From Daphnia pulex (taxonomy: Eukaryota; Arthropoda; Branchiopoda; Diplostraca; Daphniidae), in the NCBI RefSeq assembly GCF_021134715.1, contig NC_060017.1:5394001-5458000 (forward strand): DNA of 64,000 nt. The letters are read 5' to 3'. Within the stretch, counting starts at the first letter, position 1, and each line of letters begins with the position of its first letter. Made by a program: the position numbers and the translations under genes. The notes under the pieces were generated by a model, which had not been told where the DNA came from, made no database searches, and saw only the letters and a program-made list of their open reading frames with translations. Positions 671 to 36,473 of this stretch are shown here, piece by piece.

Positions 671-1317
671 CTAACATTGGTTGAATCCACTTGGCTGAGA
701 ACAAACAGGTGTCGATCTGACGGTGGTGGTAAACGTTGAGGTGATAGGTCGGAAGAATAACCGTGGATCAGCAATAATCACTGGCTGACTAAGGTATGGA
801 TTATAATTGGCAGAAAGATAGAAACGATGGTCGAACGTGGACTCGGGCACTCCGTAATCAGGAGAGTCGCGCCAGTATGGCAATTGCGGATCAGCTTTGC
901 GATCCTTCCTGATGGAGGGTTCCATCTCGGCAAGCTGTGTGACCTCGATCCTGTTTAAACAGCAAATCAATCCAAATTAATTTAATTTAGAGAAAAACTC
1001 CAATAATTGAAATCCTGAACTGACTTGTTGACTGGACTAGGTTCGATGGAGTCGTCATCGCTTGTAAGAAATCGTTTGCGGCGGCCAGCGCAAATCACAG
1101 CAGTGTAAACCGTGCAAGTAGTGGTGGATGTTGATGTCCTTGCATAAAGATTCCAGAAAAGACGGCCACCAGGAATCAAGTTTGGAGACGGAATAATGTC
1201 AGTGTCAGGATAGTAGCTTGGATGTTGATACAAGCCGTCGCTGTAGTACCGCAGATATTGGGCATTTCCCTGAACTATTAAAGCGGAAACGGACAATAGG
1301 AAAACGAAAAAATGCAT
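671..1317 (-). CDS. Cluster gene A: small secreted Thr-rich precursor protein, unknown function
   Basis: Two exons, 1317-1025 and 950-671, give 190 aa. The intron has GT-AG ends and phase 2, joining ..PVNK to IEVTQ. Residues 1-19 form a signal peptide ending before QYLRYY. The Thr/Ser run is short in this copy and is followed by the Cys pair CTVYTAVIC and a basic site RRKR. The acidic spacer SDDDSIEPS leads to RKDR-KADPQ, where the second half begins. That half repeats the order of the first: NYNPY, ADPRLFF, a Thr/Ser stretch, then CSQPSGFNQC at the C terminus. It is the leftmost member of a five-gene minus-strand set. I do not recognise the family; secretion is well supported, function is not. 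Confidence 0.82.
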
Positions 1318-1369
1318 AATTTCGTACAGATTATGTTCTCAGCTATAATATTCAGAATCTCGTCTCCAA

Positions 1370-1412
1370 CAATTACTGGAGATTTAGCTGAGATGCAAGG
1401 CCTATATATACC
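1370..1412 (-). promoter_or_regulatory. Core promoter of cluster gene A
   Basis: TATATATAGG on the minus strand (1410-1401) lies about 85 bases upstream of the start codon. Unlike genes B-D, I cannot pick out a clear initiator at the usual spacing, so the transcription start is only estimated near 1375-1380. Confidence 0.45.
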
Positions 1413-1603
1413 TATGAACTTTATTTACATAGATGATCGACGTGATAATGCAAAATCACTTAGACCGAAAATCACTAGAAATTAACTGTCATCTTTGTTT
1501 GGCCGCTTATTCACGTGTACTTTGTACTCAGATATTGAGTTTACATAACACAGAACTTGGTTTCTTAAGCTAAAAGACGTTAATAAAATATTTCGAGTTC
1601 TTG

Positions 1604-1700
1604 TCAGCAGTCAAGAGTGTTGGGCAATTGCGGATGTGCTTTGTGCTGAAAAACGCAGAACTCCAATGTCCTTGAAAGTAAGCTGATTATCGCACCTCTC
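1604..1700 (-). pseudogene. Possible scrap of a cluster-gene second exon
   Basis: On the minus strand around 1642-1622 the bases coding HKAHPQLP closely match the KADPQLP segment of gene A's second exon (about 20 of 23 bases). Nothing around it reads like the rest of the family. It may be the last recognisable piece of a lost copy between genes A and B, but so short a match could be chance. Confidence 0.25.
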
Positions 1701-1770
1701 ACAGAAGAAGGAGAATCAAAGTTTGAAAAAAATTCGGACCTAACGACCGAAATGCAAGAAGGTGATATGT

Positions 1771-1797
1771 ATAATAATAATAATAATAATAATAATA
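1771..1797. repeat. (TAA)n microsatellite
   Basis: Nine uninterrupted ATA/TAA trinucleotide units between genes A and B. Apart from this and the possible exon scrap, the stretch 1413-2051 holds nothing I can identify. Confidence 0.9.
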
Positions 1798-2051
1798 GAA
1801 ACGACAGAGGAAAGAATATGAGTATTAATTTTCTCACGGTATCTCGCCAGAGATTATATCAATGAATTTCACACGAGCATGTGTGCAGTTTAACAACATT
1901 GGTTTGTGTATTTACTACCATTCTGCAGTCTCTGAGTACAGAACAATTTCAATTATTAATTTTTACTGGGTAAGTGCTGATTATGTGTCGGTTAGGATGT
2001 GCCTTATGCAGTAAGTTTCAAGTAAATAATAAAAATGTGGATCAGATCCAT

Positions 2052-2726
2052 TTAGCATTGGTTGAACCCACTTCCTTGAGAACAGATCGGAGTTGATCTG
2101 GAAGTTACTGTCGTTGTAGAAGTTGAAGTGGTTGTGAAGGCGTAATAATTCAGCAAAAAGCGTGTGTCAGCTATAACCACGGGTTGGCGCATGTATGGAT
2201 TGTAGTATACGGGGAAAGGCGTTTGCTGGCCAAATGTGGATCGGAGCTCGTACGAAGGACCAACACCTCCGCGCCATAATGCGAATTGAGGATCAGCTTT
2301 ACGTTCGTTCCTTATAGAATCAATTTCAGCCATCTGCGTAACCTCCACTCTGTTGAAATAAGAAATCATTCGAAATTTTAACAACTTCAATTTTTTAAGC
2401 ATTTAATTGGGTATCTCATTAGTTACTTACTCGTTTACTGGAGATGGTTTGATTGCTTCTTCATCGTCTTCCAAGAATCTTCTGCGGCGACCACCAACGC
2501 AAGCCACGTTAGTTGATACCGTGCAAGTAGTGGTAGTAGTAGTTGTACTTGTCGTAGTTGTCGTACGTAAAAAAAGACGATTGTCGTAACCTAAATTCGG
2601 GGAACGTCCATCAGCAAATGGGATGATTGGATAGTTGTACGCACTGTCGTCGTAGTATGGCTGATACTGGGCATTTGCGTAAAAAATCACAACGCAAATG
2701 GAAAAAAGAAAAACGGAAAAATTCAT
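2052..2726 (-). CDS. Cluster gene B: small secreted Thr-rich precursor protein, unknown function
   Basis: Exons 2726-2431 and 2349-2052 (197 aa), GT-AG intron in phase 2 between ..SPVN-E and VEVTQ. The signal peptide ends at about residue 19 (..FYANA before QYQPYY). Exon 1 carries RLFLRTTTTT, a longer Thr run than gene A, the pair CTVSTNVAC and a tetrabasic GGRRRRFL. The acidic part LEDDEEAIKPSP bridges the intron to RNER-KADPQ. Exon 2 has YYNPYMRQP, ADTRFLL, a Thr/Ser block and a terminal CSQGSGFNQC. It is very close to genes C and D in both halves, so these three look like recent duplicates of each other. Confidence 0.85.
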
Positions 2727-2793
2727 TTTGATTTTTCTTCAAAAGATAACGATCGCTTGCCAAGGGACTCTGTTTTGCCGAAATCCAAAGGAG

Positions 2794-2832
2794 CGACTGT
2801 GAATTTTGCAATGATACGAAGGGGTTTATATA
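2794..2832 (-). promoter_or_regulatory. Core promoter of cluster gene B
   Basis: TATATAAAC (2832-2824, minus) is followed about 33 bases on by ACAGTCG (2800-2794) in the context TTCACAGTCGCT, an arthropod-type initiator. The same pair at similar spacing precedes genes C and D. Confidence 0.6.
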
Positions 2833-3555
2833 CTGCAGCCTGCTGAAAAAAATAATGGCAAAATTTTATATGCGGTTAAATTGGATCCTTAGGCTACAAT
2901 TGGCCCTTCCACATCCCGTCGCCAATCCGTTCCCTGGCATTGTATATTGTCATGAAGTGCTAACGAGAGTAAGGCTTAATTATTACGCCATGGGGAAAAC
3001 TAAGGTTAGAATTCGTTTAATGCGTGTGCAGTTTCTGGAGTCTTCTATTTCTTATTTGGTTAAACAACTGCTGTTCTCTTTGTCCTATATACGATGTCAT
3101 TACCACAGGAAAAATCAGCAGGGAAGTTTTGCAATGCCCTTGAAACTATGCTTCTACTGTAAACGTACCAAGTCAAATATGCATGTTTTCACGTTATGTT
3201 AGGTGTCCGTGGATTTATTCCCGTCTGTACCACACTAAAAGCAACGTAGTACTCCGAGCGAATTGGGTTGAAGGAAAGAGCGGAGAGCATAATAACAAAT
3301 TCGTATTTTCTAGATAAATAATTCGAAACGTTTTCTTTTTAAAAAAGAGATTGATTATTTTGGTACGTGTATTTCCAAACAATCTCAAAGAACAGCAAAC
3401 CGTTATCCATTTCCTCCTCATGAAAAAGTTAATATTATTAATACCATCACTTTATCTCCTCAAATGTAACATTGCCAATAATATAAAGGAAATACACGTT
3501 CAGAGAAAAATATTTTCACGTTCAACATGACCGTCATCCAGCCGCACTTTATCGA
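2833..3555. other. Spacer between cluster genes B and C
   Basis: It contains the upstream region of gene B and the downstream region of gene C. The open stretch on the plus strand at 2855-3202 has no signal peptide, domain or family match I can see, and I treat it as chance. Confidence 0.5.
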
Positions 3556-4262
3556 TTAACACGGCTGGAATCCACTTGTTGCTGAACAGATTGGTGTTGA
3601 TCTGAAAGTGGTAGTCGCCGTAGAAGTCGTTGTTGTCGTGAAGGCATAATAATTAAGCAGAAAGCGAGTATCGGCGACAATAATCGGTTGGCGTAAGTAA
3701 GGATTATAATTCGTAGGGTAATTCAAACTTTGGCCGAATGTTGACCGGATTTCGTACGGAGATGGAGGATGTTCGAAACCTCCACGCCAAAATGCATATT
3801 GCGGTTCCGCTTTACGCGTTATCTTGGGAGCCGACTCCATTTCGACAAGCGGCGTAATTTCAACCCTGATGATTTCGAATCAACAAGAGATTTCAAAAAT
3901 TTGCGTACAAACGAATCAGTAATCCGTAATAAAAGCTCATTGTGAACTTAAGCAATATATACCATACCCACTTACTTGTCAACTGGAGAAGGTTCGATGG
4001 AATCATCTTCTTCCAAAAATCTTCTGCGGCGACCACCAACACAAGCAACGCCAGTCGAAACCGTGCAAGTAGTGGTCGTGGTGGTTGTGGCTGTAGTAGT
4101 TGACGTACGTAAATAAAGACGATGGTCAAAACCTAAGTTTGGGGTCCGGCCATCAGAAATCGGATAGTTTGCATATTGATACAAACTGTCTTCATAGTAT
4201 GGCTGATATTGGGCTTCAACTGCAGCAAAAGAAACAGACAAAAACAGAACGAAGAATTTCAT
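3556..4262 (-). CDS. Cluster gene C: small secreted Thr-rich precursor protein, unknown function
   Basis: Exons 4262-3976 and 3865-3556, 198 aa, phase-2 intron between ..SPVD-K and VEITP. Signal peptide MKFFVLFLSVSFAAVEA before QYQPYY. Exon 1 shows GRTPNLG, RLYLRTSTTT, a Thr run, CTVSTGVAC and GGRRRRFLEEDDS. The second processing site is weaker than in its neighbours: KITR-KAEPQ has Lys rather than Arg at the fourth position back. Exon 2 contains NYNPYLRQP, VADTRFLLNYYAF and ends CSATSGFQPC. The exon-2 segment TRFLLNYYAFTTT is the same as in gene B, which supports recent duplication or gene conversion between the two. Confidence 0.85.
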
Positions 4263-4313
4263 TTTGTCTAATCTCTAAAAATTGCAGTCTGGTTTGCTGA
4301 AATGTGCAGTAAA

Positions 4314-4351
4314 GACTGGTGAATTTACTTGAAATTTGTGAAGTTTATATA
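4314..4351 (-). promoter_or_regulatory. Core promoter of cluster gene C
   Basis: TATATAAAC (4351-4343, minus) and, about 33 bases downstream, ACCAGTC (4320-4314) within TTCACCAGTCTTTAC. The layout matches genes B and D. Confidence 0.6.
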
Positions 4352-5002
4352 CCGGTACAGCTGATTACTTGAAGAAAAGCAGGCGTGGTATACGTTTTCA
4401 ATGCTTATTCGGTTGGTTAATTCACATCCTGTATTTGTTTTTCGTACTTTATAGTTTAAGTCGGCGATTAAAAACTTTTACGCTAAAGGCTATACTCTGA
4501 TGACGGAACTCTTGCAATACTGTATTCTTCTGCAATTGTTGAAGCAATTAAACTTAGATTTTATACAGTTCATTGATCGTCCGACGTATTTACTGGGATA
4601 TAATCGGTAGAAAATTCCCAGTGGCGCTTTAGCTGCGGTGTCATTGTTTGCTTGTAAGTCCATAGGCATTAAGGAATATTACGAAAAATTACCTAGCTAG
4701 GACTACTCCTTCGCACCCCTTCGAAAGTGCGGCTAATACACAACTTTACTAGAGGGACAAATGTAAAAATTACGAAAAAAAAAAATGAGCAACGAATTGT
4801 TTCCAGCAAAAGTATACTGAATAATTATCAGGTGGTGTATTTCCATGCAATCTCATAACAATCCTTTCCTTTTAAACAAATAATTAAGTTTATTATTACG
4901 ATTATCGCCTTAATTTTCTTCTCCAATAAATAATGGAAATAAGGATTAGTAGCTAAAAAATAATCTATTAATTAGCTAAAAGCTAAAAATGAATAGTCAG
5001 TT
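4352..5002. other. Spacer between cluster genes C and D
   Basis: AT-rich, with homopolymer A runs near 4770. I see no reading frame, RNA gene or repeat with clear structure. Confidence 0.5.
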
Positions 5003-5694
5003 TTAACACTGGCTAAAGCTGCTTCCTGAAGAACAAATTGGTGTCGATCTTGAAGTAACAGTAGAAGTGGATGTCGATGTTGAGGTGACGCGAATCAAGA
5101 ATCGTGGATCCGCATTAATCACTGGTCGGCGAACATACGGATTGTAATGCACGGGGAAAGGTTGTTGGCGGAATGTGGACTGGATTTCGTACAAAGGATG
5201 TTCATAACCTCCACGAAAAAATGGGAATTGAGGATCAGCTTTACGTTCCATCCTGGCTGAAGGCTCCATCTCTGCAATCTGAGTAACCTCGACTCTATTG
5301 AAAAAAAAAAAAATAATAATTTAAAAATCGGTTGGGCACGTATTGGAAGGAAAACTTCGCTTGACTATACTGACTTGTTTACTGGAGAAGGCTCAATGAG
5401 GTCGTCATCATTGACGCCAAGAAATCTTCTACGACGACCACCAACGCAAGCCACATTAGTTGATACCGTGCAAGTAGTGGTAGTAGTAGTTGTAGTTGTA
5501 GTCGTCGTTGTGAAAAGGTTAGTTGCCAGTTGGAATAAGAAACGGTTTTCGTCCACGTAGTTTAAGGGAGGCTGAATGTCAGCTGGCGGATAAATTGGAT
5601 ACGGATACGCATCATCGTAGTATGGCTGGTATTGGGCATTTCCTTGAACTAAGAAAAAAGCAGTAACTGACAATAAGGAAACAAGGAATTTCAT
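5003..5694 (-). CDS. Cluster gene D: small secreted Thr-rich precursor protein, unknown function
   Basis: Exons 5694-5375 and 5294-5003, 203 aa, phase-2 intron between ..SPVN-K and VEVTQ. The signal peptide is about 20 residues (MKFLVSLLSVTAFFLVQGNA). This copy has the longest Thr run of the minus set, about 13 in a row, coded by mixed ACN codons. Then come CTVSTNVAC, GGRRRRFL and the acidic NDDDLIEPSP. The second site is RMER-KADPQ. Exon 2 holds HYNPYVRRP, ADPRFLIR, alternating Thr/Ser and a C-terminal CSSGSSFSQC. The long Thr run suggests dense O-glycosylation if the protein passes through the Golgi. Confidence 0.85.
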
Positions 5695-5762
5695 TTCAGC
5701 TTCAGAAAATAGAATTTTCGTCGAATATTGAGAGAATGCTGCTTGCTGAAAATTCCAGTAGC

Positions 5763-5800
5763 GACTGCGAAATTTCGAATGATTCTATGATGTTTATATA
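5763..5800 (-). promoter_or_regulatory. Core promoter of cluster gene D
   Basis: TATATAAAC (5800-5792, minus) followed at about 33 bases by CGCAGTC (5769-5763) in TTTCGCAGTCGCTAC, nearly the same initiator as gene B. Confidence 0.6.
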
Positions 5801-6604
5801 GGACGGTATTGCATAGATGACATCATCATGGTACACAACCTCAGCACTGCAACATGATGCGGTTGGACGTCATCTCTATTTAGCCTATTTACAGCATTGC
5901 AGTTATTACGTAGCAAATTCTGTGAAGTTTCGTAATTTTGCTGCAGGCATTTTTACGATTCATGTGACATGAATTATTATCCGCCGGTGTTAAGGAGGGC
6001 ATTCAGCACCTTTGAAAGTTGAAACTCATGCTTATGAAGGAAAAAACACGAATTTCGAGGAAGTGTTAAAAAACTGACAATTATTATTTTATAAAGATTT
6101 TAATAAGATTAGTCAATTTAAATATAATTCTTGAAATAAGATTTAGTCAATTCTGTAAGTTTAAAAAGGAATCAATTATTACGGTACGGATATCACCAAG
6201 CGGTGAACGACCAGTTGATTGGCGCTTTTGAAGAGAGTATTCGTTCCGGAGTAAAAAGGATACGTTCTGTACCAATTAGATTTGCCCAGAAGCATTTTAA
6301 CCACACATACACATATACGAACGATTGTTGTTTACTACTTTTCTTTAACTGAGAAAATTCACAGGAGGGCGTAGTGTGACCCAGCGTGTGAGCTCTTTGA
6401 TCTAACAGCGCAAATTGTTGCTCGGTAAAAGATTTTATCTCCGTTTGCTCCAGGGATCAATACATTTTATTCTTTCAATCACATTTTATCAATATTGTTA
6501 TCGGTTCTCATTTTTGCTGCCACACCTTAACTACATTAAAATTTAACTGTTTAAATAGTGGGGGAAAGTTTCGGATGTTTTAGATGGGACAAAGTTGCTG
6601 CCTT
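5801..6604. other. Spacer between cluster genes D and E
   Basis: No gene found. It contains the distal upstream region of gene D and the downstream part of gene E. Confidence 0.5.
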
Positions 6605-7302
6605 TTAACACTGATTGAAGTTGCTGGCCGAAGAACAAGCCGGAGTTGACCTGAAAGTGGACGTGCTGGTGGAGGTCCGAGTTACGACGTTGACAATGAA
6701 GAAACGAGGATCGGCGGCGACGACCGGTGGCCTCATGTACGGATTCACAGGATAAGCGGGTTGGCCAAAAGTCGATTGAATATCGTACAACGGATAACCC
6801 GGATAGACCGGGTCGACACGCCAAAATGGATATTGCGGATCAGCTTTGCGTTCATTCCTGACCAAAGTTTCCATTTCGGCAAGTGGCGTGATCTCAACCC
6901 TGACAAATCAGCCAATCATTTTCAAAATTTTATTCAATGGCTTTCCACAAATAGGTGTGGAAAAAATAAAAGCCTAAGTACTCACTTGTTTACGGCGGAA
7001 GGTTCAATATTATCGGCTTCTAGATCGCCAACCAGCAGAAACCTTTTACGGGGGCATTTTAAATTCGTCGAAACCGTGCAAGTGGTTGTCGAGGTGGACG
7101 TTGTAGTTGTTGTCGTTGTAAAAATAGATGTGATTGCGTTGAAAATTTGGTTGAAGAAAATTCGGTTTTCATGCCCGCCATCGTCAGGGTAGTTGAGATA
7201 AGGATTGATGACATCATCGCGGTAGTACGGATAATAGTATTGGGCGTTAATACAGTGAACCACTACAACGGAGACGCACAACAAGGTAACAAAGCAACGC
7301 AT
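6605..7302 (-). CDS. Cluster gene E: small secreted Thr-rich precursor protein, unknown function
   Basis: Exons 7302-6986 and 6899-6605, 203 aa, phase-2 intron between ..SAVN-K and VEITP. Signal peptide MRCFVTLLCVSVVVVHCINA. It is the most divergent minus-strand copy: the first basic site is PRKRFL instead of GGRRRRFL, and the spacer LEADNIEPSAV is longer. The Thr/Ser run and the pair CTVSTNLKC are kept. The second site is RNER-KADPQ, as in gene B. Exon 2 has VNPYMRPP, ADPRFFIV, a Thr/Ser block and CSSASNFNQC. It stands head to head with gene F on the other strand, 2.4 kb away. Confidence 0.84.
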
Positions 7303-7387
7303 TTTTCCTGCTGCTGGTTAAGTCAATTTTCGTTGATAGAAATTCAGAGACTTGCGCAGCTTCTTCTCGATATCCACTGATTCAGAG

Positions 7388-7428
7388 TGACTGAATTCAC
7401 ATCTCTGCGAACTGAAGGCATTTTATAG
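7388..7428 (-). promoter_or_regulatory. Core promoter of cluster gene E
   Basis: CTATAAAATGCC (minus, from 7428) is followed about 35 bases on by TTCAGTCAC, a good initiator match (TCAGT). The TATA form differs from TATATAAAC in genes B-D. Confidence 0.5.
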
Positions 7429-9571
7429 TCGGAAGATGAAATTGAAAAAAATTGTTCTCGTGACGGATTGCATATTTAATCGTGATGAGAATTCACACCC
7501 CAGTATTTTACCCGTTGTTAAAGTTCGCTTTGATGTACTAAAATAGCTACTGTTGCGCTGAAGGGTAAACTTAAAACCCCATCAGTGTTGCAATGGTCCT
7601 TTATACAGAACCGCGTATACGTGTCCAATGAGACAATAATAGCAGCTCGAAGAGACTTTGCTGCCAAGTGATAGTTTTCTGATGATGAGAACGAATAATA
7701 CTTCTCCGCAGGGAGGATCGTGATTGTCAGGTCACTTCCGATACTGGATAGTCTCAGCCGGGAATTCCCGCGAATAATTCAAAACCCTCGTGACGATCAA
7801 AAATGTTCCCATCAGCGTATACAGCCAATATCCAATAATAAGTAGGTAAAGTGAATAGAATGAACGAATGACCGTGCTGCCGGCGTACCCGGATGAATTC
7901 GTACCCAATGTCAATGCCGTGGGTTTCTTGGCGACGTTGTCCTATAATGCAAACAAAGAACTTGCCCAGCAGCCATCCTCCCAGCAGTCACCATCATTAG
8001 CGCACTTACTAATACTATACAGGAACTTTCACTTTAAAAAATTGACTCAATATACGAGCTAGGCTAAGCGCCAGGCAACAACAGAGAGGCGAAGGCAGCA
8101 ACGAGTGCTTTGACCTACAAACGCATAGCAACATTTTTTTATTACTCTTTCACGCTCTCGAAAATCGTTATGGGTTTTTATATTCCTACACACACGGGAA
8201 CGGCCGAAATTGTCTATCCATTTCCTTATATCCAACTCTTTCAAGGCCTTGGAAAAGACTCGAAAAGTCTCCCGTGTCGGATAGAGGAGATAGGGGGTCG
8301 TTCACTTCTTTATCGCTCTTTGTACCAAGAAAAAAAAGAAAGAAAAAGAAAAACAGCGTGAAAGAAAACTCTTCGAGTCTTTGAGCAACTCACGGTCTGG
8401 AGGTGAACGCCGAGACGGTGAAGGTCGACGAGGTCTTTGTCGCTATCCGCGCGATGCGTGAGCCGCTAACCGTTCGTCGACCCCCATCGGTAGAGTCCCA
8501 GCACCATAAGATTGCATAGCATATGAATTGAATTCATTAGGCAGGTCGGAACTGGGAGAGTCACAAGAGTTTCTATTATACACACGCCGTAGCCTAGCAG
8601 CAGCAGAAATGTTCGTTTGATTAAAAGTTAATTGCTCGAAATGGCGGCCGAAATATAGCTGTACAGTCATTTGAACTTTGCCGAATTTAGGCTAAAGCGA
8701 ATAAAGGTGAAATAACGCCATCGCCTTTTTCTTTGTCCTCTATGACGATGTTGTATTTGAGAACATTTCAACAGGTTAATTTCGTCATAAATTTGTTCCG
8801 TCTTTGTTGGGTCTATCAGCCAGAGAATCAAAGTCACGAAATTCTGGCGCGCAGTTATTTTACTATATTCTATCAGTTTAAGTGGTTTCACCGTATATTG
8901 GGACTGCTGGCGATAAATGGCTCGGTTATAGTCCCTATATGGTTTCAGGGATGGGCGATAAATGCTATTCACCAGAGCTTCATCGGCGCGAGCGTCGTTA
9001 AGGACTCGAAGGCCAAGGCAAAGTAATAAACTATGTACAAGGCCAAGAATAGAAAGCGCTTCCTCGAGACTGAATTATATGTCTGTGTCAAAGCATCTTC
9101 GGTTATAACAGGGGATAAAAGCGTACGGATATACACGAGAGCCGCTGTATATATTATTGCCATCACCAAAGTTCAACTTGAGGTTTATTTTATTTTCTAT
9201 TTTATTTCTTTGTTTTTTTTTTTTTTTTTAACTTTCTGACAACAGAGAAGATGCTTGTGCGTGCCGCTTCCATGTTGTTTATTGAGTTGCACAACGGCTG
9301 GTGCAGTTTTCATTTGCGTTCAATCTCAAATATTTGGAATGGAGAAGACAAATTCTTTCGTGTCTGAAGTTTAAGGACAAGCGAAGGCGTTGAACTTTCG
9401 GAAGTGCAAACCAGTCGACTTGCAATGCTCTTATAATGTGACTAATTGAAAAATAAAAATAAAAGAGGATCAAAATCCTGTTGTCAGGTTATCAAAGAAA
9501 ATGTGTATCACGACATTTCTTCTCAAATAAAAATACCACAATGAAATTAAAACGTGTACGTATGCACCTAA
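7429..9571. other. Head-to-head centre of the cluster
   Basis: The 2.1 kb between the divergent promoters of genes E and F. A possible membrane-protein exon (7941-7732) is listed separately. A second hydrophobic frame on the minus strand, 9169-8969, ends at a possible donor (AAGCTCTG/GTGAAT) but cannot be joined to the first with confidence. Poly-T at about 9210-9230. Nothing else is identified. Confidence 0.45.
7732..7941 (-). CDS. Possible last exon of an unidentified membrane protein
   Basis: The minus strand has a good acceptor (TTTGCATTATAG/GAC) at 7942, then 69 codons to a stop at 7732. The translation begins DNVAKKPTALTLGTNSS and contains one strong hydrophobic stretch (SLYLLIIGYWLYTLMGTF), then ends polar (..AETIQYRK). 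A possible upstream exon on the same strand begins MLLCVCRSK near 8130 and could join in phase 0. I recognise no family. It could be a real small gene between the two cluster arms, a decayed gene, or chance. Confidence 0.25.
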   Translation of the reverse strand, partial: DNVAKKPTALTLGTNSSGYAGSTVIRSFYSLYLLIIGYWLYTLMGTFLIVTRVLNYSREFPAETIQYRK

Positions 9572-9600
9572 GTAAACGAGGGAAATGAAAACTCGTTTAC
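9572..9600. promoter_or_regulatory. Palindromic element upstream of gene F (GTAAACGAG..CTCGTTTAC)
   Basis: GTAAACGAG at 9572-9580 and CTCGTTTAC at 9592-9600 form a perfect 9-base inverted repeat with an 11-base gap. The right half (AACTCGTTT) recurs upstream of genes G (11776-11784) and H (14110-14118), each time about 25-45 bases before the TATA-like box. This looks like a transcription-factor site shared by the F-G-H subgroup. Confidence 0.45.
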
Positions 9601-9615
9601 CATTTAACAGACGTA

Positions 9616-9664
9616 CATCGCCACGTATAAAAACGGTCATCTAATGCCGTTGGCTCATCAGTGC
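9616..9664 (+). promoter_or_regulatory. Core promoter of cluster gene F
   Basis: TATAAAAACGG at 9616 and the initiator-like CATCAGTGC at 9656. The sequence TGGCTCATCAGTG has a close counterpart, TGGCTCAACAGTC, in gene G. Confidence 0.6.
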
Positions 9665-9694
9665 TCTGTAATAGATCACTCATTCAGCTTGGAA

Positions 9695-11770: not shown

Positions 11771-11806
11771 AAGAGAACTCGTTTATAAAAGAAAGGACTA
11801 TGTCTG

Positions 11807-11845
11807 TATAAAAGCGAATGCGTAATGCTGATGGCTCAACAGTCT
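11807..11845 (+). promoter_or_regulatory. Core promoter of cluster gene G
   Basis: TATAAAAG at 11807 with CAACAGTCT at 11837, 30 bases downstream. An AACTCGTTT element lies at 11776-11784. A second TATA-like TTTATAAAAG at 11782 is less likely because of its distance from the initiator. Confidence 0.6.
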
Positions 11846-11903
11846 CCAATAAAAAGGCCCACAGTCCAAATACAGCTGAGCTTTTTATTTTATAGTTCAA
11901 AAA

Positions 11904-12736: not shown

Positions 12737-14108
12737 CACTCTTAACCAATTTCATGTTAACAACATAACCCATATTACGCCACTATTTACTTCAACTGGT
12801 TATATTAATGTATTCGGACTCCAAATTATTCTGAAATGGTTGGATAGCGGTTGCGAGTGAATCATTTCCAAATATATTAAGTCAATTTTACATTTTGTTT
12901 TTGTTTTTCACACAAAGTAGGACGAGTGTTGAAAAGCAAAGAATGAAAAGGAAAAAATGTGCAGATTCATTCAAACTGATCAGTTTCGAGAATTCCCATA
13001 AATAGAGGTTTGATTTAATATTGAAATGCAGAACGATTCGAGTTCCCATGGGAAAACACGGCTCTATCATATCCTGATTATTTCTGCGAAGTCGTAATAT
13101 CAAAAGAATGCTAACGATATACTATGATATAACATTAGGCTGGTTTGAGAAAAGAAATCAACTCGAAAAAGGCACAATTTTTATGCGCATAATTTCTGTA
13201 ACAGAAACATAAAAAACCGACCACACTTGTTTCCATGTTGGAGAAATGCTCGAAGGCAAAAAGGGTCAAATCGTTTAACTCCTTCTCGATGAAACAGAAG
13301 ACACGCAACAAAAACCCGGAAGGCTTTTGCACATTCCGTTAACTTTATTTCCTATATAGTTATTTTCCCGCTATCGCCTTCGCGCTGGTGTGATCTGGTG
13401 TGATCTCATTTTTTTTTTTTTTTTCAAATTTGACCCGTTCCAACAAGAGGATTCGACAACAAATGACAGATGTATTTTTGGTGTGCGGCATATATTCTTT
13501 GATAAAAATGAGAGAAGCTACAGTCGATCGATCCATGTTAGACAGTCCAATTTGAATATTTACTACATGGGTCACCTGCTAAGAATAAACCTGGCCAAGC
13601 AGAACGTGGTAGGAGCACGCCAGTTGTTTTTCTTTCCTCGGCAGACACCTTACACGATAAATCTGGCATTCTATATTCCTATATTAGGTCACCGCGCAGG
13701 GTCGTTTGTTATTGGTATCACGTTCAATTTTTTCAGGTTGGCCAATAAAAGAACAGTCGACGATTTCATTACAAAAAAACTATTGGTGTGCCCTTCTGGG
13801 AAGCTAATTTACAACGCTTGAAGAATAATAGATTTCGGTGGGTTGTGGGAAATTGAGTACATGAAGCTATTTGATCGTTCATCTTAATTTGCTTTGGTAT
13901 TTGTCTCCCGATTAAGGGCAGAGGAAAGATGAAGGCGATGAACTCGCAGACGAAAACAAGTTTGATCGCCCTCCAGATCAAAACTCGAAAGAGGAAATGA
14001 GATACCTTTAGGGTTGACGTAGCTCGAGCCAAATTAAAAAAGATAACGGCCATTCACTTCATGGAGTTAAGATTTCAGTAAAAAAATATGCTGATGAATA
14101 ATAAGCTG
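12737..14108. other. Spacer between cluster genes G and H
   Basis: No supported gene. The 143-codon open stretch on the plus strand at 13390-13821 starts inside a poly-T tract, has no signal peptide or motif, and overlaps an antisense open stretch, so I do not call it. Confidence 0.5.
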
Positions 14109-14195
14109 AAAACTCGTTTGTGTTGGTATCATCGGATTGCCAGATGAAGTGCATAAAACCAACCCCAAACTCAAAGATGCTCAGTCGTCTCCGAT
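14109..14195 (+). promoter_or_regulatory. Core promoter of cluster gene H
   Basis: AAACTCGTTTG at 14109 precedes a weak TATA-like CATAAAACC at 14152. CTCAGTCGTC near 14180 is a possible initiator. This is the least typical promoter of the plus-strand set. Confidence 0.4.
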
Positions 14196-14251
14196 AAGCG
14201 CTAAACAGTTCACATCTTCTCAAGCGAAATTTAAACATCCCATTTCAAAAA

Positions 14252-15175
14252 ATGCGTTTGCAACTTCCCTTGCTCCTCGTCTTTTTGGCTTGTGCAGCTT
14301 CTCAGGCGTTCAACCCTTACGTCGGCGAGCAATATCCGTATTACTACAATAGCCCGTCGTATTATAGAGCCGACGATGCAGAAAATTTACGGCAAATGAT
14401 GTTTTCGTTGGCCTTGCCTGCGAGACAAACGACGGTGACAGTCACGACCACTGTTCGACCGACGTTCTCATTCCCAACGCTGTCGATGCCATCCCTACCG
14501 CCACTGCGGCAAACGATAACGAGCCGACTGACGACATATTCCACGATTACCTGCACCAAGTCAACCGATGTCCCTTGTCCGGCTGTTGTCAAAAAAACCA
14601 GCACGGCTGATCTTATGGCAGCAACAAGTGGGAGCCAGAAAAATACAACAGCAGTCGCTGACGTCGAGGTAGAAGAAGAGGATGACGCTGTACAGCAATT
14701 CGCCGCCGTCACTCCGACCGTCGTCCAAAAGTAAAAATTTGTTTTTAAAAATTTGATTACGTATTCATTTTCTAATTTGATTTTTTTTTTTTAATTATAT
14801 CGAAGAGTTGAGACTACAAAAGTGCCGACCCAAAAAGTTCCCAACAAGAAAGTGCCAAACCGAAAGGGCCGTGATATCGAATCGGAATTGTTGTCCTTGT
14901 TGTCTCCGGATTTCTACGACGACTATTTCGAAAATCAGCCCCATGACATCGAGTCCGCTTTTCACACCGGCCCGTACAATCCCGTTCCTCTGCCTTTTTT
15001 CAGAACGTATCAGCCATCACCTAATATTGCCCAGCTGCGCCAATCGTCGTTTTTTGCTTTACTAGGAAGTCTATTCACCGGCCGGAGCACGATAACAGTC
15101 TTTGGAATCAAAACGTCTACCTTGACACCTACTTGTTCGGTGGCCGGGCCCATTCCTCAATGTCCAAATAATTAA
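14252..15175 (+). CDS. Cluster gene H: secreted precursor, largest member
   Basis: Two exons, 14252-14730 and 14806-15175, 282 aa, phase-2 intron between ..TVVQ-K and VETTK. Signal peptide MRLQLPLLLVFLACAASQA. Exon 1 is longer than in other copies: after YPYYYNSPSYY it carries two Thr-rich tracts separated by a Pro/Leu segment (PTLSMPSLPPLRQT), then ITCTKSTDVPC. No tetrabasic site; only VVKK. The acidic spacer EVEEEDDAVQQF is in exon 1, so the separate middle exon of F and G is missing. Exon 2 begins with a duplicated heptad-like tract (KVPTQKVPNKKVPNRKGR), then ESAFHTGPYNPVPLPFF, Thr/Ser sequence and CSVAGPIPQCPNN. Confidence 0.82.
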
Positions 15176-17327
15176 TTGTTTTTTAAATTGAGACCTGGTT
15201 TAACCTGCAGGAAATTATTTATTTGAAATAGAGTAGCAGACTGGTCCGAGAGAATGACTTCCAACTGTTCAGCCAGCCATAAGAATTTTTTGTGAAACTC
15301 TCCTCTCCATTTAAAATAAACATTACACATATTTAAAAATGCCGGTGTGGCGGCAGGTCAAAAAATTGTCTTGTTGCACTTTGATACAAGGGTTTAAAAG
15401 TTCAAATATTTCCAAAAAAGTGAAGGTTTACTCACAGAAAAATTTGTGAGGTAAAAAACAAAACAAGCCTGATCTACAGTCGTTCGACAAATGAGATTTT
15501 TAGTGAAACTTGACTGAGGAAAAAACAAAACGGAGAGGGAAAACAGTGGCAGTCAACCACCTAGCTCGGGATTAAACGTACTTCGTGACTACGCAACGAT
15601 TTCTTATCAACGCCCCCAAATAGTCAAAAAGGAAGAATCAATTTGGTCCTACCTTTATGCCTGGGAAATACAGCCAGGCATCTCCAGTCGCTCCATCCAT
15701 CCGCTGAAGAGTTAAATGACACCAGCAGACGGGATAGGGTAAAAGGGTGTCCTCGTGAATACACCCACATTCACATGGGCGTACACGAGGACATTTAAAG
15801 ACAAGGGGAAAAAGAGAGATCTGTAACTCGATTTACATCAGTAGTTTTTCAAAGCAATGGGATGTTGTGTATCTAAATGAAACAAAAAATAGGTTACGAA
15901 AAATATTCAAGACAGAAACAACAAGTCAGGAAAAGTTGAAAATGAGACACTGGGTAAATCCTAAGTGTTAATAAATGGGATAATTAAAGGTTTACATGTA
16001 ATTCTCTGCATTGATGCAGGTAATAAAATTGATGCAGCATTAAAACATCTAGCATGTAACAGGTTAATGGAAGTGAAGGAAATCGTTACCCAAGCGATGA
16101 TCCTGAGATTGTTGCTGGTACAGGTTAACACCTGCACAAGTGAAACTTGCATATCTTGTGGTTAGAATGGTGGCTCTAGCCTCAAATCTGCAAAAATGAA
16201 AAAAAAGGTTACATAGTACAAACAAACTGGCATGCATTGACAGGGGGCTTGCATTGCATGTGCTAGTCAAGAACTAACATTTCACACATTTGAAACAGGT
16301 TTAACTCTTCTATTAGCTCCCTCAGTAATTGTATTTGTATAATTAGTTTTATTTACCCGCTAAACAGCATGGAGTATGACGGTTATAAAAACAAATAAAT
16401 CTATAACAAAATAAATATTGAACATTGTACAACTTCGAAATTTTAAACTTGACCAAAGCAGACGACACTTGTCCAATTTTCTTTTAATCATGCCTATCAT
16501 GGTTACGATTTTAAAAATGATTAATACGATATCGATAGAAATAAAAAATAATTAAATAAGTAAATAAAATATAAAAAAAAATAAGTTTTAGTTGAATAAA
16601 TACCATTTCTGTATATAATTCATTGATTCCCAGGTAAAACCCTTCCCCCTCGAATCGACCATTTCCCGTAAAGTGAATTTACTTGAAACAGAAAGCATCA
16701 AAATTTGATCAGCAACGAACTAAAATTGTAACACATTTAGCTCATTTTGACTTTTTTTCTATAAACGGACAGGCCCAAGGCTATTAGTCTTTGTCTCAGA
16801 TCTCAGTATAGGGTCTTATTGTGTCGGGAATCGGGATAAAAACGATACGTGAAAACCCTTTCAGTGAAAGTCTCGACTCGGAATAGACAATCCAGTTCCG
16901 CTTTCTCCCAAAGGTTGACCTTCAAAATAGTGTTTTACCATGTAACTTTAACTTGTAAGGGTTTCCACACGAAACTGGCGCTCTATCCTATTCGTTCGTT
17001 CAGGTCAACATCCTCGGGCTTCAGCCGTATCCACTAAAAATTTATAGCCTCACAACATGCAGCCACAAAGAAAAAAAAATAATTTTTTTCTTTCTAACCC
17101 TTTTCAACCATATAAGGTAATAGGTAAAAGACTAAAAGAACGCCTAGCCTTTTTTCTCGTCCTTATTTCCAATAGAAAGAATATTGCCCTTTTTTCGGAC
17201 GGCTTTTTGACAGCCAAAATTATGGAGGAAGAGGACGACCGAAACGAACCCCTTTTTTCTTTCCGCCTATTACTTTATGTTGCATTTCATAATTGCACCT
17301 CACACACAGCTTTGTGCCCCAGAACCG
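15176..17327. other. Spacer between cluster genes H and I
   Basis: No gene found in 2.1 kb. An imperfect hairpin lies at about 15748-15794. Around 16120 there is a small palindrome CAGGTTAACACCTG. The short overlapping open stretches on both strands have no family features. Confidence 0.5.
15748..15794. repeat. Imperfect hairpin, stem about 18 pairs
   Basis: TGTCCTCGTG and CACGAGGACA are perfect inverted copies; inside them TACACCCA pairs with TGGGCGTA with one mismatch, leaving a short loop (CATTCACA). It may be a small structured RNA, a remnant of a foldback element, or chance. Confidence 0.45.
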
Positions 17328-17366
17328 TATAAAAATGGCTGTGTAGAGCTCACTTTTCAACAGTGT
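17328..17366 (+). promoter_or_regulatory. Core promoter of cluster gene I
   Basis: GTATAAAAATGGCTGTGTAG (TATA from 17328) and CAACAGTGT at 17358. Nearly the same sequence stands upstream of J and K. Confidence 0.68.
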
Positions 17367-17429
17367 CTTATTCGTCGCTGCACGTTTAAAACTCATCTTA
17401 AGTCGAGCTTACTTTTGCTTCAATTCAAA

Positions 17430-18092
17430 ATGCGTCTTGCACTGTCCGTCCTTGCTGCTTTGTTGGCTTATGTCGCCGCTCAGGATCATCAGCAGCCCCA
17501 GTACATTGTCTACCGCAATCCTTACTACGGAGATGCCGTAATCAACCCAGATGAGCAACGACTTTTCTTGCCGACGACTACCACCACGACGACGTCGACT
17601 TCTACCGTGACTTGCACCAAGTCAGCCGCAGCTGCTTGTGGTGGCCGCAGACGTCGCGAACTTTTGTTTGCCGGAGAAGAGGAAGAGCAATTCCCCATTG
17701 TTCCCACAGCCGTCGAAGGGTAAAATCATATTTTCTATATCAAACATTTTTCCTATTTAAATTCATTTTTGGTTATACATTTCTGCAGAGTTGAACCCAC
17801 TCAATTATCCAGCCGAGATGCTCGCGCTGCCGATCCTCAGCAGGTGTATGTTGTGCCACCTCAGTTCGCCTACCAGCCCCAGTCTGGATTCCACAGCGGC
17901 TCTTACAACTACCGCCCTGTTGTTGTGCCTTTCTACGGCTCACAGTACCAACCTGCTCAGCGCCTTTTCTTTACTCAGATTCAATCCGCTTTGACGGTGA
18001 CCAAGACGGCAACTGCCTTCGCCATCTTTACTTCCACCTCGACTCCAGCTTGCTCAGCCGCCGGCACAATCCCCCAATGTCCAAATGCTTAA
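17430..18092 (+). CDS. Cluster gene I: small secreted Thr-rich precursor protein
   Basis: Exons 17430-17719 and 17789-18092, 197 aa, phase-2 intron of 69 bases. The start is the ATG opening the signal peptide MRLALSVLAALLAYVAAQ; an upstream in-frame start is ignored because it lies before the promoter. First half: YIVYRNPYYGD, DEQRLFLPTTTTTTT, CTKSAAAAC, then GGRRRRELLFAGEEEEQF, a tetrabasic site joined to an acidic tract. Second half: RDAR-AADPQ, SGSYNYRPVVVPFYG, QRLFFTQIQSAL, a Thr/Ser stretch and CSAAGTIPQCPNA. Exon 1 and the 3' part of exon 2 are almost base-identical to gene K, more so than to the gene J that lies between them. Confidence 0.88.
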
Positions 18093-18649
18093 TTTATTTT
18101 TAAACATTATTTAAATATGTTTGACGACCAAAGTAATGCATCTACGCAGAAACATGTTACTTGTTTATTAGTTAAATATACACACATCATAGAATAATAC
18201 GGCTTATACTTGTTCTCCATTTGATTAAAAAAAAATAATTGTTATCCCATCGGAAGCAATACATACAATTAAGCGGCAAATTTATTTTACTTTAATCTTA
18301 TTTGATATAGCAAGGTCTGCACTTGGGTCTGCAGTTCGTTGATTCCATTTCAAAATTTGATTGCTGATAGTCAACAGATTAGCCGAAATATTTGTTGAAA
18401 TATAGTTTAACAGATAAACAGATTAAACGTACGAAAATGATGTTGCCAGTCAACTTGAATGTTATTCAAATAAATGATCATTCTACTATTATTCGGCCTG
18501 ATTTTATTATTGAAATGATAAGGTAGAATAAAAAAATTACCAGATATATATATTTTCTTCATGCCGAATTTGTTATTCCATTCGAGCACTTTAAAACCAA
18601 AAAGGATTCCCTTCCATGCGCTCATGGCCATACCGGCACACCAAACCCG
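18093..18649. other. Spacer between cluster genes I and J
   Basis: AT-rich and without a gene. It contains the 3' untranslated region of I and the upstream region of J. Confidence 0.5.
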
Positions 18650-18687
18650 TATAAAAATGGCTGTCTAGGGTTTCATTTCGACAGTGT
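18650..18687 (+). promoter_or_regulatory. Core promoter of cluster gene J
   Basis: CGTATAAAAATGGCTGTCTA (TATA from 18650), then TAGGGTTTCATTTCGACAG leading into the initiator CGACAGTGT at 18679. K shares the GTCTAGGGTT and CATTTC parts. Confidence 0.68.
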
Positions 18688-18761
18688 CTTGCAGCTCACC
18701 ACCGGTTCAAGACTTCTCTTTCAGTTCCTGCCGAGCTTATACTACATTATAGAAATTTAAA

Positions 18762-19454
18762 ATGCGTCTTGCACTATCCGTCCTTGTTGCTTTGTTGGCT
18801 TACGTCGCCGCTCAAGAACAGCAGCAGCCTCAGTACGTCCCTTATGGCAGTCCTTACCAAGCTCCATTTTATGGAGACAACGCAGAACCAGCCATCATTA
18901 GCCCTGATGACCCACGACTTTTCCGCCCGACGACTACCACAACAACAACGTTGACCTCCACCGTTACCTGCACATCTTCCATCGGAACTGCTTGTGCGGC
19001 TGGCCGCAGACGACGCGGAATTTTGTTTGACGGAGAAGAAGAGCAGCAATTCCCTTTCATTGCCCCATCAGAAGTTGAAGGGTAAGAGCTCAATCGTAAT
19101 TTACTGTGGCCATTTTTACATTTGTTTCATTGTTGCAGAGTTGAACCCACCCAAGTATCCAGCCGAGAGGCTCGCGCTGCCGATCCTCAGTTGATCCTGG
19201 TTTCACCCCAGTTCGCCTACCAGCCTCAGTCTGGATTCTACAGCGATTCTTACCAATATCGCCCCGTTGCGCTGCCTTTCTACGCCCCTCGAAACCAGCA
19301 ACCAGCAGTCATTGATGATCAACGCTTTTTACTAAATAGCCTCCAATCCGCTATTACAGTCACCGTGACCTCGACTGCCTTTGCCATCACAACTTCCACC
19401 TTAAATCCAACTTGCTCTGTCGCCGGCACGATTGCCCAATGTCCAAATGCTTAA
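18762..19454 (+). CDS. Cluster gene J: small secreted Thr-rich precursor protein
   Basis: Exons 18762-19081 and 19139-19454, 211 aa, phase-2 intron of only 57 bases. Signal peptide MRLALSVLVALLAYVAAQ. Exon 1: YVPYGSPYQAPFYGD, DDPRLFRPTTTTTT, CTSSIGTAC, then AGRRRRGILFDGEEEQQF. Exon 2: REAR-AADPQ, YQYRPVALPFYAP, DDQRFLLNSLQSAI, a Thr/Ser/Val region and CSVAGTIAQCPNA. It has extra residues before the second RxFL motif compared with I and K, and its C-terminal third differs from theirs. Confidence 0.88.
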
Positions 19455-20203
19455 ATTTGGTGCAGTTCGTTTTATTGTTATTTGCTTTCATTATGAACGC
19501 GATAGAGCGGAACAAGTTATTTGTTTCCTAATTTAATACACATCTTTCAGCATCTCTCGTGTCTCTGTCTCCATCATAAAAAGTTCGTCGTACAGCAAGG
19601 AATACTGTACGGATATCAAGATGCATATTTATTTTATAAATTATAAATATTTTCAAATCGGGCGAACTTTCGTGAGCTTTAAAACGGTCAATGTTTTCCT
19701 TTCCTTAATTTTGCGCATGACCTTTTCTAACAAAATAAGGTAAGGCTTTATAAGGAGATATGCTGAGGTTAGTGCACTCGCTGAAAGGAAACGAAAAACG
19801 CCATTGGTGTATTTTTTGTTATATAACAGATTACCTATTCGCCAGCTTCCAACAACAAGCTATATCCACTGAAGCGCCTCATCTTGAATTGAAATAAATA
19901 TACTTTAACCGACTGTATTACTTCGTGTACTTACACATTCATTCACACACATATAAATAACAACAACGACAATTCCATTTCCAAGCTATGCGACATAAGC
20001 GTGGATATTCTTAGCAACATCTGTTTTTATTCCTATACATATTATCTTGTTTTAAAAAGAGTATCTTTCTTTCGAACGTAGAAAAATCTAGAGAGGAAGA
20101 GAGGATAGTTAAATTACCATACATATGCGCTCTCTTCCAACAAAGTTGTAGTTACGCCTATATATAGAAATCACGCCCTTTTTTTAAGCGGAGCCCCAAA
20201 CTG
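19455..20203. other. Spacer between cluster genes J and K
   Basis: Low-complexity AT-rich DNA with an ACACAC patch near 19945. No gene seen. Confidence 0.5.
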
Positions 20204-20242
20204 TATAAAAATGGACGTCTAGGGTTGGCATTTCAACAGTGT
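20204..20242 (+). promoter_or_regulatory. Core promoter of cluster gene K
   Basis: GTATAAAAATGGACGTCTAG (TATA from 20204) and CAACAGTGT at 20234, matching I and J in order and spacing. Confidence 0.68.
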
Positions 20243-20312
20243 TCTACAGGTCGCTGTCTGTTCGAAAACTTATTCAGACCCAGTCCAGCTTAGCACATTT
20301 CGTAAAATCAAA

Positions 20313-20999
20313 ATGCGTCTTGCACTGTCCGTCCTCGTTGTTATGTTGGCTTATGTATCCGCTCAGGAACAGCCCCAGTATGTTGTCTACCGCAGTCCTT
20401 ATCAGGCTCCTTACTACGGAGATAGCGTACAACGAGAAGTGGCGATTCCAGATGATCCACGACTTTTCCTCCCGACGACTACCACGACGACGACATCGAC
20501 TTCCACCGTGACTTGCACCAAGTCCACTGCTGCTTGTGGTGGCCGCCGCAGACGTCGCGAACTTATGTTTGCCGGAGAAGAGGAAGAGCAATTTCCCATT
20601 GTTCCCACAGCCGTCGAAGGGTATAAAACTTATCTCTTCTATCAACCAATTTTCTCTTCATTTATTATTTTGTTTGTCATACATTGCTGCAGAGTTGAGC
20701 CCACCCCAGTATCCAGCCGTGATGCTCGCGCTGCCGATCCTCAGTTGTTTGTTGTGTCACCCCAGTTGGCCTACCAACCGCAATCCACTTTCCGAAGTGG
20801 CACATTTAACTACCGCCCCGTTGCTGTGCCCTACTATGGCACACACGGCCAACCTGTCGCTGACGAGCGCCTTTTCTTCACTCAAATTCAATCTGCTTTG
20901 ACGGTGACCAAGACCGCAACTGCCTTCGCCATTTTTACTTCCACCTCGACTCCAGCTTGCTCAGCCGCTGGCACAATCGCTCAGTGTCCAAATGCTTAA
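20313..20999 (+). CDS. Cluster gene K: small secreted Thr-rich precursor protein
   Basis: Exons 20313-20620 and 20693-20999, 204 aa. The 72-base intron has GT-AG ends in the family position and phase. It is a multiple of three and contains no stop in frame, so an unspliced message would code a 228-aa protein with a hydrophobic insert (residues such as FSSFIILFVIHCC). Signal peptide MRLALSVLVVMLAYVSAQ. Exon 1: YQAPYYGD, DDPRLFLPTTTTTTT, CTKSTAAC, GGRRRRRELMFAGEEEEQF (five Arg). Exon 2: RDAR-AADPQ, FNYRPVAVPYYG, ERLFFTQIQSAL, Thr/Ser and CSAAGTIAQCPNA. Confidence 0.88.
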   Translation: MRLALSVLVVMLAYVSAQEQPQYVVYRSPYQAPYYGDSVQREVAIPDDPRLFLPTTTTTTTSTSTVTCTKSTAACGGRRRRRELMFAGEEEEQFPIVPTAVEGYKTYLFYQPIFSSFIILFVIHCCRVEPTPVSSRDARAADPQLFVVSPQLAYQPQSTFRSGTFNYRPVAVPYYGTHGQPVADERLFFTQIQSALTVTKTATAFAIFTSTSTPACSAAGTIAQCPNA

Positions 21000-21979
21000 A
21001 TTTACCAAAGTATTTAAACACTTAATTTTTCTCTGTTACACCCTATGAGCCATTTGGAACATGTTACTGTATTCATAATTTAATACACTCTAAAGCATCA
21101 GTTGTTATCATTGAATTTGAATGCCACAGAATAATAAGACAATGAATATCTTTACGAAATAAGTATTCTTTTAAATTTTCGCCAATTGATGCTTCCTAAA
21201 AATACTCCAATGGTGCAATCGTATTTTAAAGTTTCGTGCAGTTACATTTACTTCCACGAAGAAGCTTAAAATTCAAATGTATGTTTCATGGCAACATAGT
21301 AGTTTTAGCACTATGAACTTGTGCCACTACGAACGAACTTTGGGTTGATGAACCTTCAACAGATTGACCCAGCAGCAAAATTATGCCGAGGCTATGAGTC
21401 GTTCGAAATATTAGGGTGCTATAAAAATAGGGATACCAGCTACCAGCTACATTTGAGTGGAAAGATACAAGAATTATCGCTTCTATCGCTTCTATTTTTC
21501 ATTAGAAACATTTTACAGATCGGTAACTGTTCGAAAAATATTAGTCTTTGCTGGAAAATATCAAAATGCGTTTTACATTTATTATTTCCTTATTCGCTTA
21601 TTCGCGTATGTATGTAGCTGTCCAATTCCAGTCTCAGTACGTAACGCAGTCCATCCAAAGCTTCTAAGGCAAATTAATATATAGAGATTTTTAGTGAAAT
21701 GTTGTTGGCTAGGTTCAATTTATTGTAGAATTTGTAGAATAGTTGTAGAAATACTTTGATTGTGCTTTAAAAAAAGGACGTAATTTGGCTTTTTTAACTA
21801 ACTTTTGAAGATGGCGCCACGGTGGCAATCAGCTGATAGTTTCTGCAACAACAAACCTTTGTTTCCACTTTTCTACACGACGTTAATAGTATATTCGTAT
21901 GTTATCGTATTCGTCGTCGTATTCTTACGAAAAATTAACATTCTAATCATTTTATATCGTGCATCACTACTTTTTAAAA
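21000..21979. other. Spacer between the cluster and RB1CC1
   Basis: Apart from the decayed copy L, nothing is seen. The last 170 bases, including ATGGCGCCACGG at 21810 and CAGCTGATAG at 21829, probably hold the RB1CC1 promoter and leader; no TATA box is evident there. Confidence 0.45.
21420..21667 (+). pseudogene. Decayed cluster gene L (promoter, leader and start of exon 1 only)
   Basis: TATAAAAATAG at 21420, then a leader whose TTTTACAGATCG..CTGTTCGAAAA matches gene K's TTCTACAGGTCG..CTGTTCGAAAA, then ATG at 21566 opening MRFTFIISLF and later VQFQSQYV, recalling the signal peptide and AQEQPQYV of neighbours. The frame stops after 33 codons and no Thr block, Cys pair or second exon follows. 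It is a truncated duplicate at the right edge of the array. Confidence 0.6.
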
Positions 21980-26683: not shown

Positions 26684-26757
26684 GCTTCCGTAGTGTAGTT
26701 GGTTATCACGTCTGCTTTACACGCAGAAGGTCCTCAGTTCGAACCTGGGCGGGAGCA
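26684..26757 (+). tRNA. tRNA-Val(UAC): tRNA-Val (anticodon UAC)
   Basis: A full cloverleaf can be drawn. Acceptor GCTTCCG pairs with CGGGAGC (one G-T) with discriminator A; anticodon stem TCTGC/GCAGA with loop TTTACAC gives anticodon TAC at 26718-26720; T arm CTCAG/CTGGG with loop TTCGAAC. The internal A box (TAGTGTAGTTGG) and B box (GTTCGAACC) are standard. A TTTT terminator follows four bases after the gene. Confidence 0.95.
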
Positions 26758-27126: not shown

Positions 27127-27200
27127 GCTTCCGTAGTGTAGTTGGTTATCACGTCTGCTTTACACGCAGAAGGTCCTCAGTTCAAACCTGAGCGGAAGCA
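27127..27200 (+). tRNA. tRNA-Val(UAC): tRNA-Val (anticodon UAC), second copy
   Basis: The same 74-base gene as the first copy apart from a few changes: acceptor 3' strand GCGGAAGC and T stem CTCAG/CTGAG, both pairing perfectly, and T loop TTCAAAC in place of TTCGAAC. Anticodon TAC at 27161-27163. A run of nine Ts follows directly as a pol III terminator. The G-to-A change lies in the B box, so transcription strength may differ. Confidence 0.92.

Positions 27201-28996
<1,796 letters not shown>

Positions 28997-36438: not shown

Positions 36439-36473
<35 letters not shown>

Follow-up and report, generated by a model that had tools for sequence, protein, structure and literature searches.

A two-armed tandem array of small secreted proteins with a putative two-chain precursor layout in Daphnia pulex

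Families of secreted proteins confined to a single lineage account for a large share of the difficulty in annotating arthropod genomes, and several known systems come closest to the family described here. Drosophila vitelline membrane proteins are small, secreted, processed, Tyr/Pro-rich products of duplicated genes with exactly spaced cysteines, and a single domain accommodates the three cysteines of the insect motif CX7CX8C; lebocins are cysteine-free, cationic, proline-rich peptides, and furin-processed two-chain precursors represent a layout and not a homology family. Lebocin-type precursors are presented in the excerpted part of PMC5282435 as Pro-rich, Thr-glycosylated pieces separated by RXXR sites, and the excerpt of PMC2932725 characterizes the YLP/GYR cuticular proteins as secreted, Tyr-rich and numerous in arthropods, Daphnia pulex included. 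The nearest literature lead for the genes treated here is the uncharacterised Cladoceran-specific family (CS, with types CS1 and CS2) of the Pasteuria-resistance regions of Daphnia magna, which the relevant passages of PMC9894429 describe as large, located at several places in the genome, seemingly specific to Cladocera, and encoding in the F locus proteins of 239-365 amino acids with predicted O-glycosylation; a figure legend of that paper flags cysteine, charged and Ser/Thr residues as notable, and an excerpt of PMC11193740 gives the family more than 100 members. CS type 1 (CS1) proteins are further described, in the same passages of PMC9894429, by a transmembrane segment predicted close to the C-terminal end, together with an intracellular YXVC/FXVC motif. 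Here we compare with these systems a gene array contained in 64,000 nucleotides of Daphnia pulex DNA (contig NC_060017.1; the window), a piece of animal genome in which introns are short. The array is of an ordinary kind, that of tandemly repeated genes for secreted proteins probably confined to one lineage; its presumed two-chain precursor layout is unusual.

The array consists, within the window, of eleven intact related genes and one remnant (p7), the leftmost gene lying at 671-1317. Five genes (m1-m5, 671-7302) form a minus-strand arm and six (p1-p6, 9695-20999) a plus-strand arm, the two facing away from a centre that measures 2,392 bp between the two central start codons (Table 1). All eleven gene models, built from splice signals, give uninterrupted reading frames once their GT-AG introns are removed and encode proteins of 190-282 amino acids, and in all of them the last intron is a GT-AG intron of phase 2 at the same place, directly before the V/I-E-x-T that opens the last exon. 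The initial annotation had described precisely such a two-armed array around a 2.4 kb centre, with eleven intact genes, at least one remnant and one conserved phase-2 intron, and both the gene models and the DNA alignment of p7 bear it out; absent from that description is a second, upstream phase-2 intron in p1 and p2. A profile of the eleven proteins, searched against 2,136 pieces of reading frame taken from the window, placed 23 above threshold, every one an exon of the eleven genes, and left below it the p7 remnant (E 2.8) and a piece at 36401-36607 that looks unrelated (E 0.32); no later exon for p7 appeared in this search of the window. p7 is a genuine family remnant, its DNA aligning with the 5' region of p6 at a score of 42, where the best of 100 control stretches reached 26.5, and with p4 and p5 at a score of 29 each (control maxima 21.5 and 23.0); the result was weaker under stricter scoring with 300 shuffles, where only p6 beat the best shuffle (29 vs 27) and p1, p4 and p5 did not.

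The eleven copies are a real family that is kept by selection as protein. Their pairwise protein identity spans 26-82%, and the protein tree separates the minus from the plus arm (support 100/100), unites p1-p3 (99/98) and leaves the remaining six inner branches open. An inverted-repeat search returned 60 pairs, of which the 25 longest (27-45 nt, 70-80% complementarity) mostly code for Thr runs or are AT-rich; it revealed no long palindrome joining the arms, and these are therefore either old or assembled copy by copy. The ratio of nonsynonymous to synonymous substitution rates (dN/dS, Nei-Gojobori) was computed for ten pairs and is 0.07-0.40 in nine of them, although the value of 0.07 (m4-m5) depends on a near-saturated dS of 4.6; the tenth pair (m2 vs p4) is saturated at synonymous sites. 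By region, where sites are few and scatter is wider, dN/dS climbs as high as 0.93 for m3-m4 in the signal peptide and 0.52 for p4-p6 in the first half of the mature protein (module A), and amounts to 0.13-0.38 in the second half (module B).

The genes also share a promoter design. TATA[AT]A followed 16-32 bases on by CAGT, within 200 bp of the ATG, occurs in ten of the eleven genes as against 16 of 836 control stretches, and TATA[AT]A by itself within 150 bp upstream in ten of the eleven as against 181 of 1,116; the controls were overlapping stretches from the remainder of the window on both strands, and the combined pattern was written only after the upstream sequences had been inspected. The exception is p3, which by eye reads CATAAAA. 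A core promoter of TATA plus CAGT is read as a mark of strong, specific expression; with its two elements about 30 bp apart, it also offers a ready anchor for mapping transcription starts. The Thr runs of eight copies are encoded by all four Thr codons (30/25/22/18) with a longest same-codon run of three, a mixture on account of which simple expansion of a Thr codon was dropped as an explanation; the runs thus seem to be maintained as protein sequence and not by triplet slippage. From dN/dS, promoter pattern and mixed Thr codons together it follows that the family is maintained as protein and is probably well expressed. The contrary view, that most copies are silent or decaying and lack a coherent function, could draw on the single remnant and on the drift of p1-p3 at the first of two basic sites described below, yet it has to contend with eleven open reading frames, intact splice signals, dN/dS below 1 and conserved core promoters, and we hold it to be extremely unlikely.

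Each of the eleven proteins starts with a hydrophobic N-terminus, the boundary of the signal peptide having been set by eye and not by program. In m1-m5 and p4-p6 the signal cleavage placed by eye falls between A and Q and would leave a mature N-terminal Gln, a residue that often converts to pyroglutamate. The paired cysteines noted in the initial annotation are present throughout, the mature part of all eleven proteins having four Cys in two pairs: the first pair closes the first half with a spacing of x7 in ten proteins and x6 in p6, and the second, spaced x8, stands at or near the C-terminus. Runs of at least six Thr/Ser residues are found in eight proteins (m1-m5, p4-p6), and in the same eight both halves follow, by eye on the alignments, one succession of a Tyr/Pro-rich stretch, an Arg-hydrophobic motif (e.g., DPRLF), a Thr-rich stretch and a Cys pair.

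Two basic sites divide this anatomy. Directly past the first Cys pair stands a cluster of the form RRRR, RRKR or RKR in eight of the eleven proteins (m1-m5, p4-p6); the strict pattern [RK]x[KR]R within nine residues after that pair is found in seven, and PRKR in m5 brings the total to eight, where composition predicts 0.03 proteins. Directly ahead of module B, which opens with ADPQ or an equivalent, [RK]xxR is present in all eleven (ten RxxR, KITR in m3), as against 0.05 expected at a given place. Both patterns were chosen after the sequences had been inspected and the copies share descent, so that these counts express retention and not independent events. The two sites flank a linker in eight copies, and the linker carries, without its leading basic run, a net charge of -2 to -7 in ten of eleven proteins (+2 in p3) or, with that run, 0 to -7 in ten of eleven; the chains on either side are near neutral, at -4 to +3 for module A and -5 to +4 for module B. 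These conserved sites lend support to the term precursor used in the initial annotation, and we consider it probable, judging from sequence, that the eight copies bearing both sites are precursors cut twice, in which case their layout would be that of furin-processed two-chain precursors. Sites of the RXXR type ahead of module B in every copy, together with Pro/Thr-rich chains, would also suit multi-peptide antimicrobial precursors resembling lebocins, Pro-rich and Thr-glycosylated pieces being released at such sites; the array chains, however, are not strongly cationic, are Tyr-rich and include four paired cysteines, and an antimicrobial precursor of this type is in our judgement very unlikely.

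Over all eleven copies taken together, the two halves also resemble one another in sequence. With Thr/Ser masked, module A aligned with module B at a mean local score of 27.8 over all eleven copies, a value reached by none of 300 column shuffles of B in any of three window settings (10, 20, whole length), and for p4-p6 taken separately the observed value was reached in 0, 1 and 0 of 300 shuffles. A test by independent shuffling agreed in direction but was too lenient, and module B of m2 was cut too early in it. An internal duplication within the gene appears likely, short of proof.

The model that we prefer assembles these elements into a secreted precursor giving rise to two related chains that would build an extracellular coat; its cleavage step is read from sequence and its destination we infer, and as a whole we find it evenly poised between acceptance and doubt. 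Tandem duplication would have expanded a family of small secreted precursors into the two arms. In module A, behind the signal peptide, the part rich in Tyr/Pro is followed by an Arg-hydrophobic motif (D-x-R-L-F, for example), a Thr-rich stem and a C-x6/7-C loop, and the module ends, in eight of the eleven copies, at the polybasic site; the linker, mostly acidic past its basic start, comes next, and the second basic site opens module B, which appears to repeat the plan and ends in C-x8-C. A furin-type convertase of the secretory pathway would be the most likely agent to cut both sites, excising the linker and freeing the A and B chains, whose Thr stems are probably O-glycosylated, whose paired cysteines may close small loops or join the chains, and whose Tyr/Pro parts might cross-link. 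The chains would then assemble into an apical extracellular coat, be it cuticle, gut lining or egg envelope, and to this extent we infer a role at a surface facing the environment, where, as the initial annotation remarked, fast-growing secreted families often act. AlphaFold models of each exon alignment (mean predicted local distance difference test score, pLDDT, of 55 and 61) contain nothing ordered besides the signal helix, an outcome that fits disordered matrix proteins and equally an alignment of eleven rows. Should the products line cuticle or gut, the array would supply a defined set of surface proteins, probably glycosylated, with which host-parasite attachment could be examined. Its anatomy is clear enough to test: the eleven copies follow one promoter design, and each product has a pair of similar chains and presumed cleavage sites, two in number.

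Several observations weigh against this model. We found no known matrix domain in the Pfam searches, which covered eight full-length proteins and all eleven last exons, and plain YLP or GYR strings, the only form of these motifs scanned here as distinct from the published matrices, occur in none of the eleven proteins, setting them apart from the YLP/GYR cuticular proteins with which they share secretion, a Tyr-rich composition and high number. The resemblance of A and B is weak in m1-m5 alone, where 11, 11 and 0 of 300 shuffles reach the observed score in the three window settings, gives no signal in p1-p3 alone (262, 208 and 37 of 300), and attains a probability of only 37% when the two profiles are compared with hhalign. 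In p1, p2 and p3 the first basic site is absent or degenerate, and these three precursors may remain uncut there; they are also without long Thr/Ser runs, and the Thr/Ser region that the initial annotation had regarded as common to all members accordingly holds for the other eight.

Two further proposals give the products a specific destination, and egg-coat or parasite-attachment roles would both be special cases of the coat model. According to the first, the genes belong to the CS family, and their O-glycosylated products would affect attachment of the parasite to the cuticle. The array agrees with the descriptions of that family in its clustered duplicates, in protein length (190-282 against 239-365 amino acids), in the prominence of Ser/Thr and Cys, and in Thr-rich stretches where O-glycosylation is predicted for CS proteins, so that duplication habit and composition both speak for the link. 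The features described for CS1, in contrast, were not found: mean hydropathy over 19 residues past residue 30 peaks at 0.42-1.35 in all eleven proteins in a simple hydropathy scan (the prediction in PMC9894429 was made with CCTOP), which gives no C-terminal transmembrane segment, and YXVC/FXVC is absent past the signal peptide in all eleven. The broader form FxxC does occur: m1-m5 end in it (FNQC, FQPC, FSQC), and three signal peptides contain it. The CS family is thus a candidate relative, compared by description only, and we judge membership possible though unlikely. More demanding is the composite proposal of a new class of coat precursors with intragenic module duplication, A and B chains released at two convertase sites, and the array as a further cluster of the cladoceran parasite-attachment family, which we deem distinctly unlikely.

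According to the second proposal the products form an egg coat in the manner of the vitelline membrane proteins of insects: they would be secreted and processed, bear cysteines at precise spacings and become cross-linked into the envelope. The fixed spacings C-x6/7-C and C-x8-C, the Tyr/Pro-rich chains and the processing sites would all be in keeping with such proteins, as would the small size, secretion and gene duplication shared with those of Drosophila; the two Cys pairs of the array, however, sit in different halves and hence in two presumed chains, unlike the one-domain arrangement of insects, and no Pfam match was obtained, the vitelline membrane (VM) domain being absent at E up to 1 from eight full-length proteins and eleven last exons (the first exons of m4, m5 and p6 lay outside this search). 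A literature search for the string CX7CX8C found no paper containing it. We regard an egg coat of this kind as rather unlikely.

The absence of a named family, asserted in the initial annotation, stands as far as Pfam, NCBIfam and PDB sequences are concerned, no credible match having been found in them as searched, and is qualified by the published CS family, known by its description. The family is probably lineage-restricted. Eight of the eleven full-length proteins (all but m4, m5 and p6) gave nothing above the Pfam cut-offs, the matches to New_glue, Ig_RSC4, CFAP126 and MDMPI_C being dropped as all under them; New_glue (PF21827), like the array proteins, is small and secreted and has a Thr run, and its scores of 16 and 11.4 bits in two of the eight proteins, against a cut-off of 31, come from an aligned stretch that is essentially the Thr run. 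The last exons of all eleven gave in Pfam only two single-member matches (E 0.14 and 0.2), which were dropped, and none in NCBIfam. Profiles of both exon alignments retrieved nothing credible from PDB sequences; a Tyr/Thr stretch of prion (E 0.034 at best, among 32 matches listed) and an antibody chain (E 1.3) were judged compositional. The last exon of p4 has no relative in the viral or genome contigs searched. That of m2 gave three short matches of 16-18 residues in viral contigs, one of which, ADPQFALWR, is preceded within a few residues by an in-frame stop, shows no more likeness around it and was judged due to chance. A literature search with six short peptides from these proteins yielded no paper, a weak test in that papers rarely print sequences, and the excerpts of PMC10958850 and PMC5340410 contain nothing on the family.

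Table 1. Members of the array and the centre between its arms (window positions; aa, amino acids).
Feature	Position	Strand	Exons	Length (aa)	TATA element	Remarks
m1	671-1317	-	1317-1025, 950-671	190	TATATA at -93/-91	
m2	2052-2726	-	2726-2431, 2349-2052	197	TATATAA at -106/-104	further TATAAAA at -144
m3	3556-4262	-	4262-3976, 3865-3556	198	TATATAA at -89	
m4	5003-5694	-	5694-5375, 5294-5003	203	TATATAA at -106	
m5	6605-7302	-	7302-6986, 6899-6605	203	TATAAAA at -125	
Centre between arms	7303-9694					2.4 kb; no member by family profile
p1	9695-10577	+	9695-10059, 10137-10196, 10271-10577	243	TATAAAA at -69	basic cluster absent directly past first Cys pair
p2	11904-12736	+	11904-12226, 12305-12364, 12430-12736	229	TATAAAA at -97	degenerate first basic site
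p3	14252-15175	+	14252-14730, 14806-15175	282	no TATA[AT]A (CATAAAA by eye)	longest end branch in tree
p4	17430-18092	+	17430-17719, 17789-18092	197	TATAAAA at -102	
p5	18762-19454	+	18762-19081, 19139-19454	211	TATAAAA at -112	
p6	20313-20999	+	20313-20620, 20693-20999	204	TATAAAA at -109	
p7 remnant	21410-21670	+				truncated; resembles p6 promoter and signal-peptide region; short open reading frame 21566-21667

The remainder of the window holds genes of other kinds. Directly to the right of the array, at about 21980-26260 on the plus strand (limits by eye), lies an autophagy gene resembling RB1CC1/FIP200, with a ubiquitin-like start (TBK1_ULD, E 1.5e-7) and a C-terminal piece that matches RB1CC1 structures (E 3e-7). 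An exon of D-3-phosphoglycerate dehydrogenase occupies 30970-31461 on the minus strand (Pfam 2-Hacid_dh_C, E 8.7e-24; PDB, E 3.1e-27), and a putative EF-hand, calcyphosin-like gene was recognized by eye at about 28040-29000 on the plus strand. Two tRNA-Val genes with anticodon TAC, near-identical by eye, stand about 370 bp apart on the plus strand at 26684-26757 and 27127-27200.

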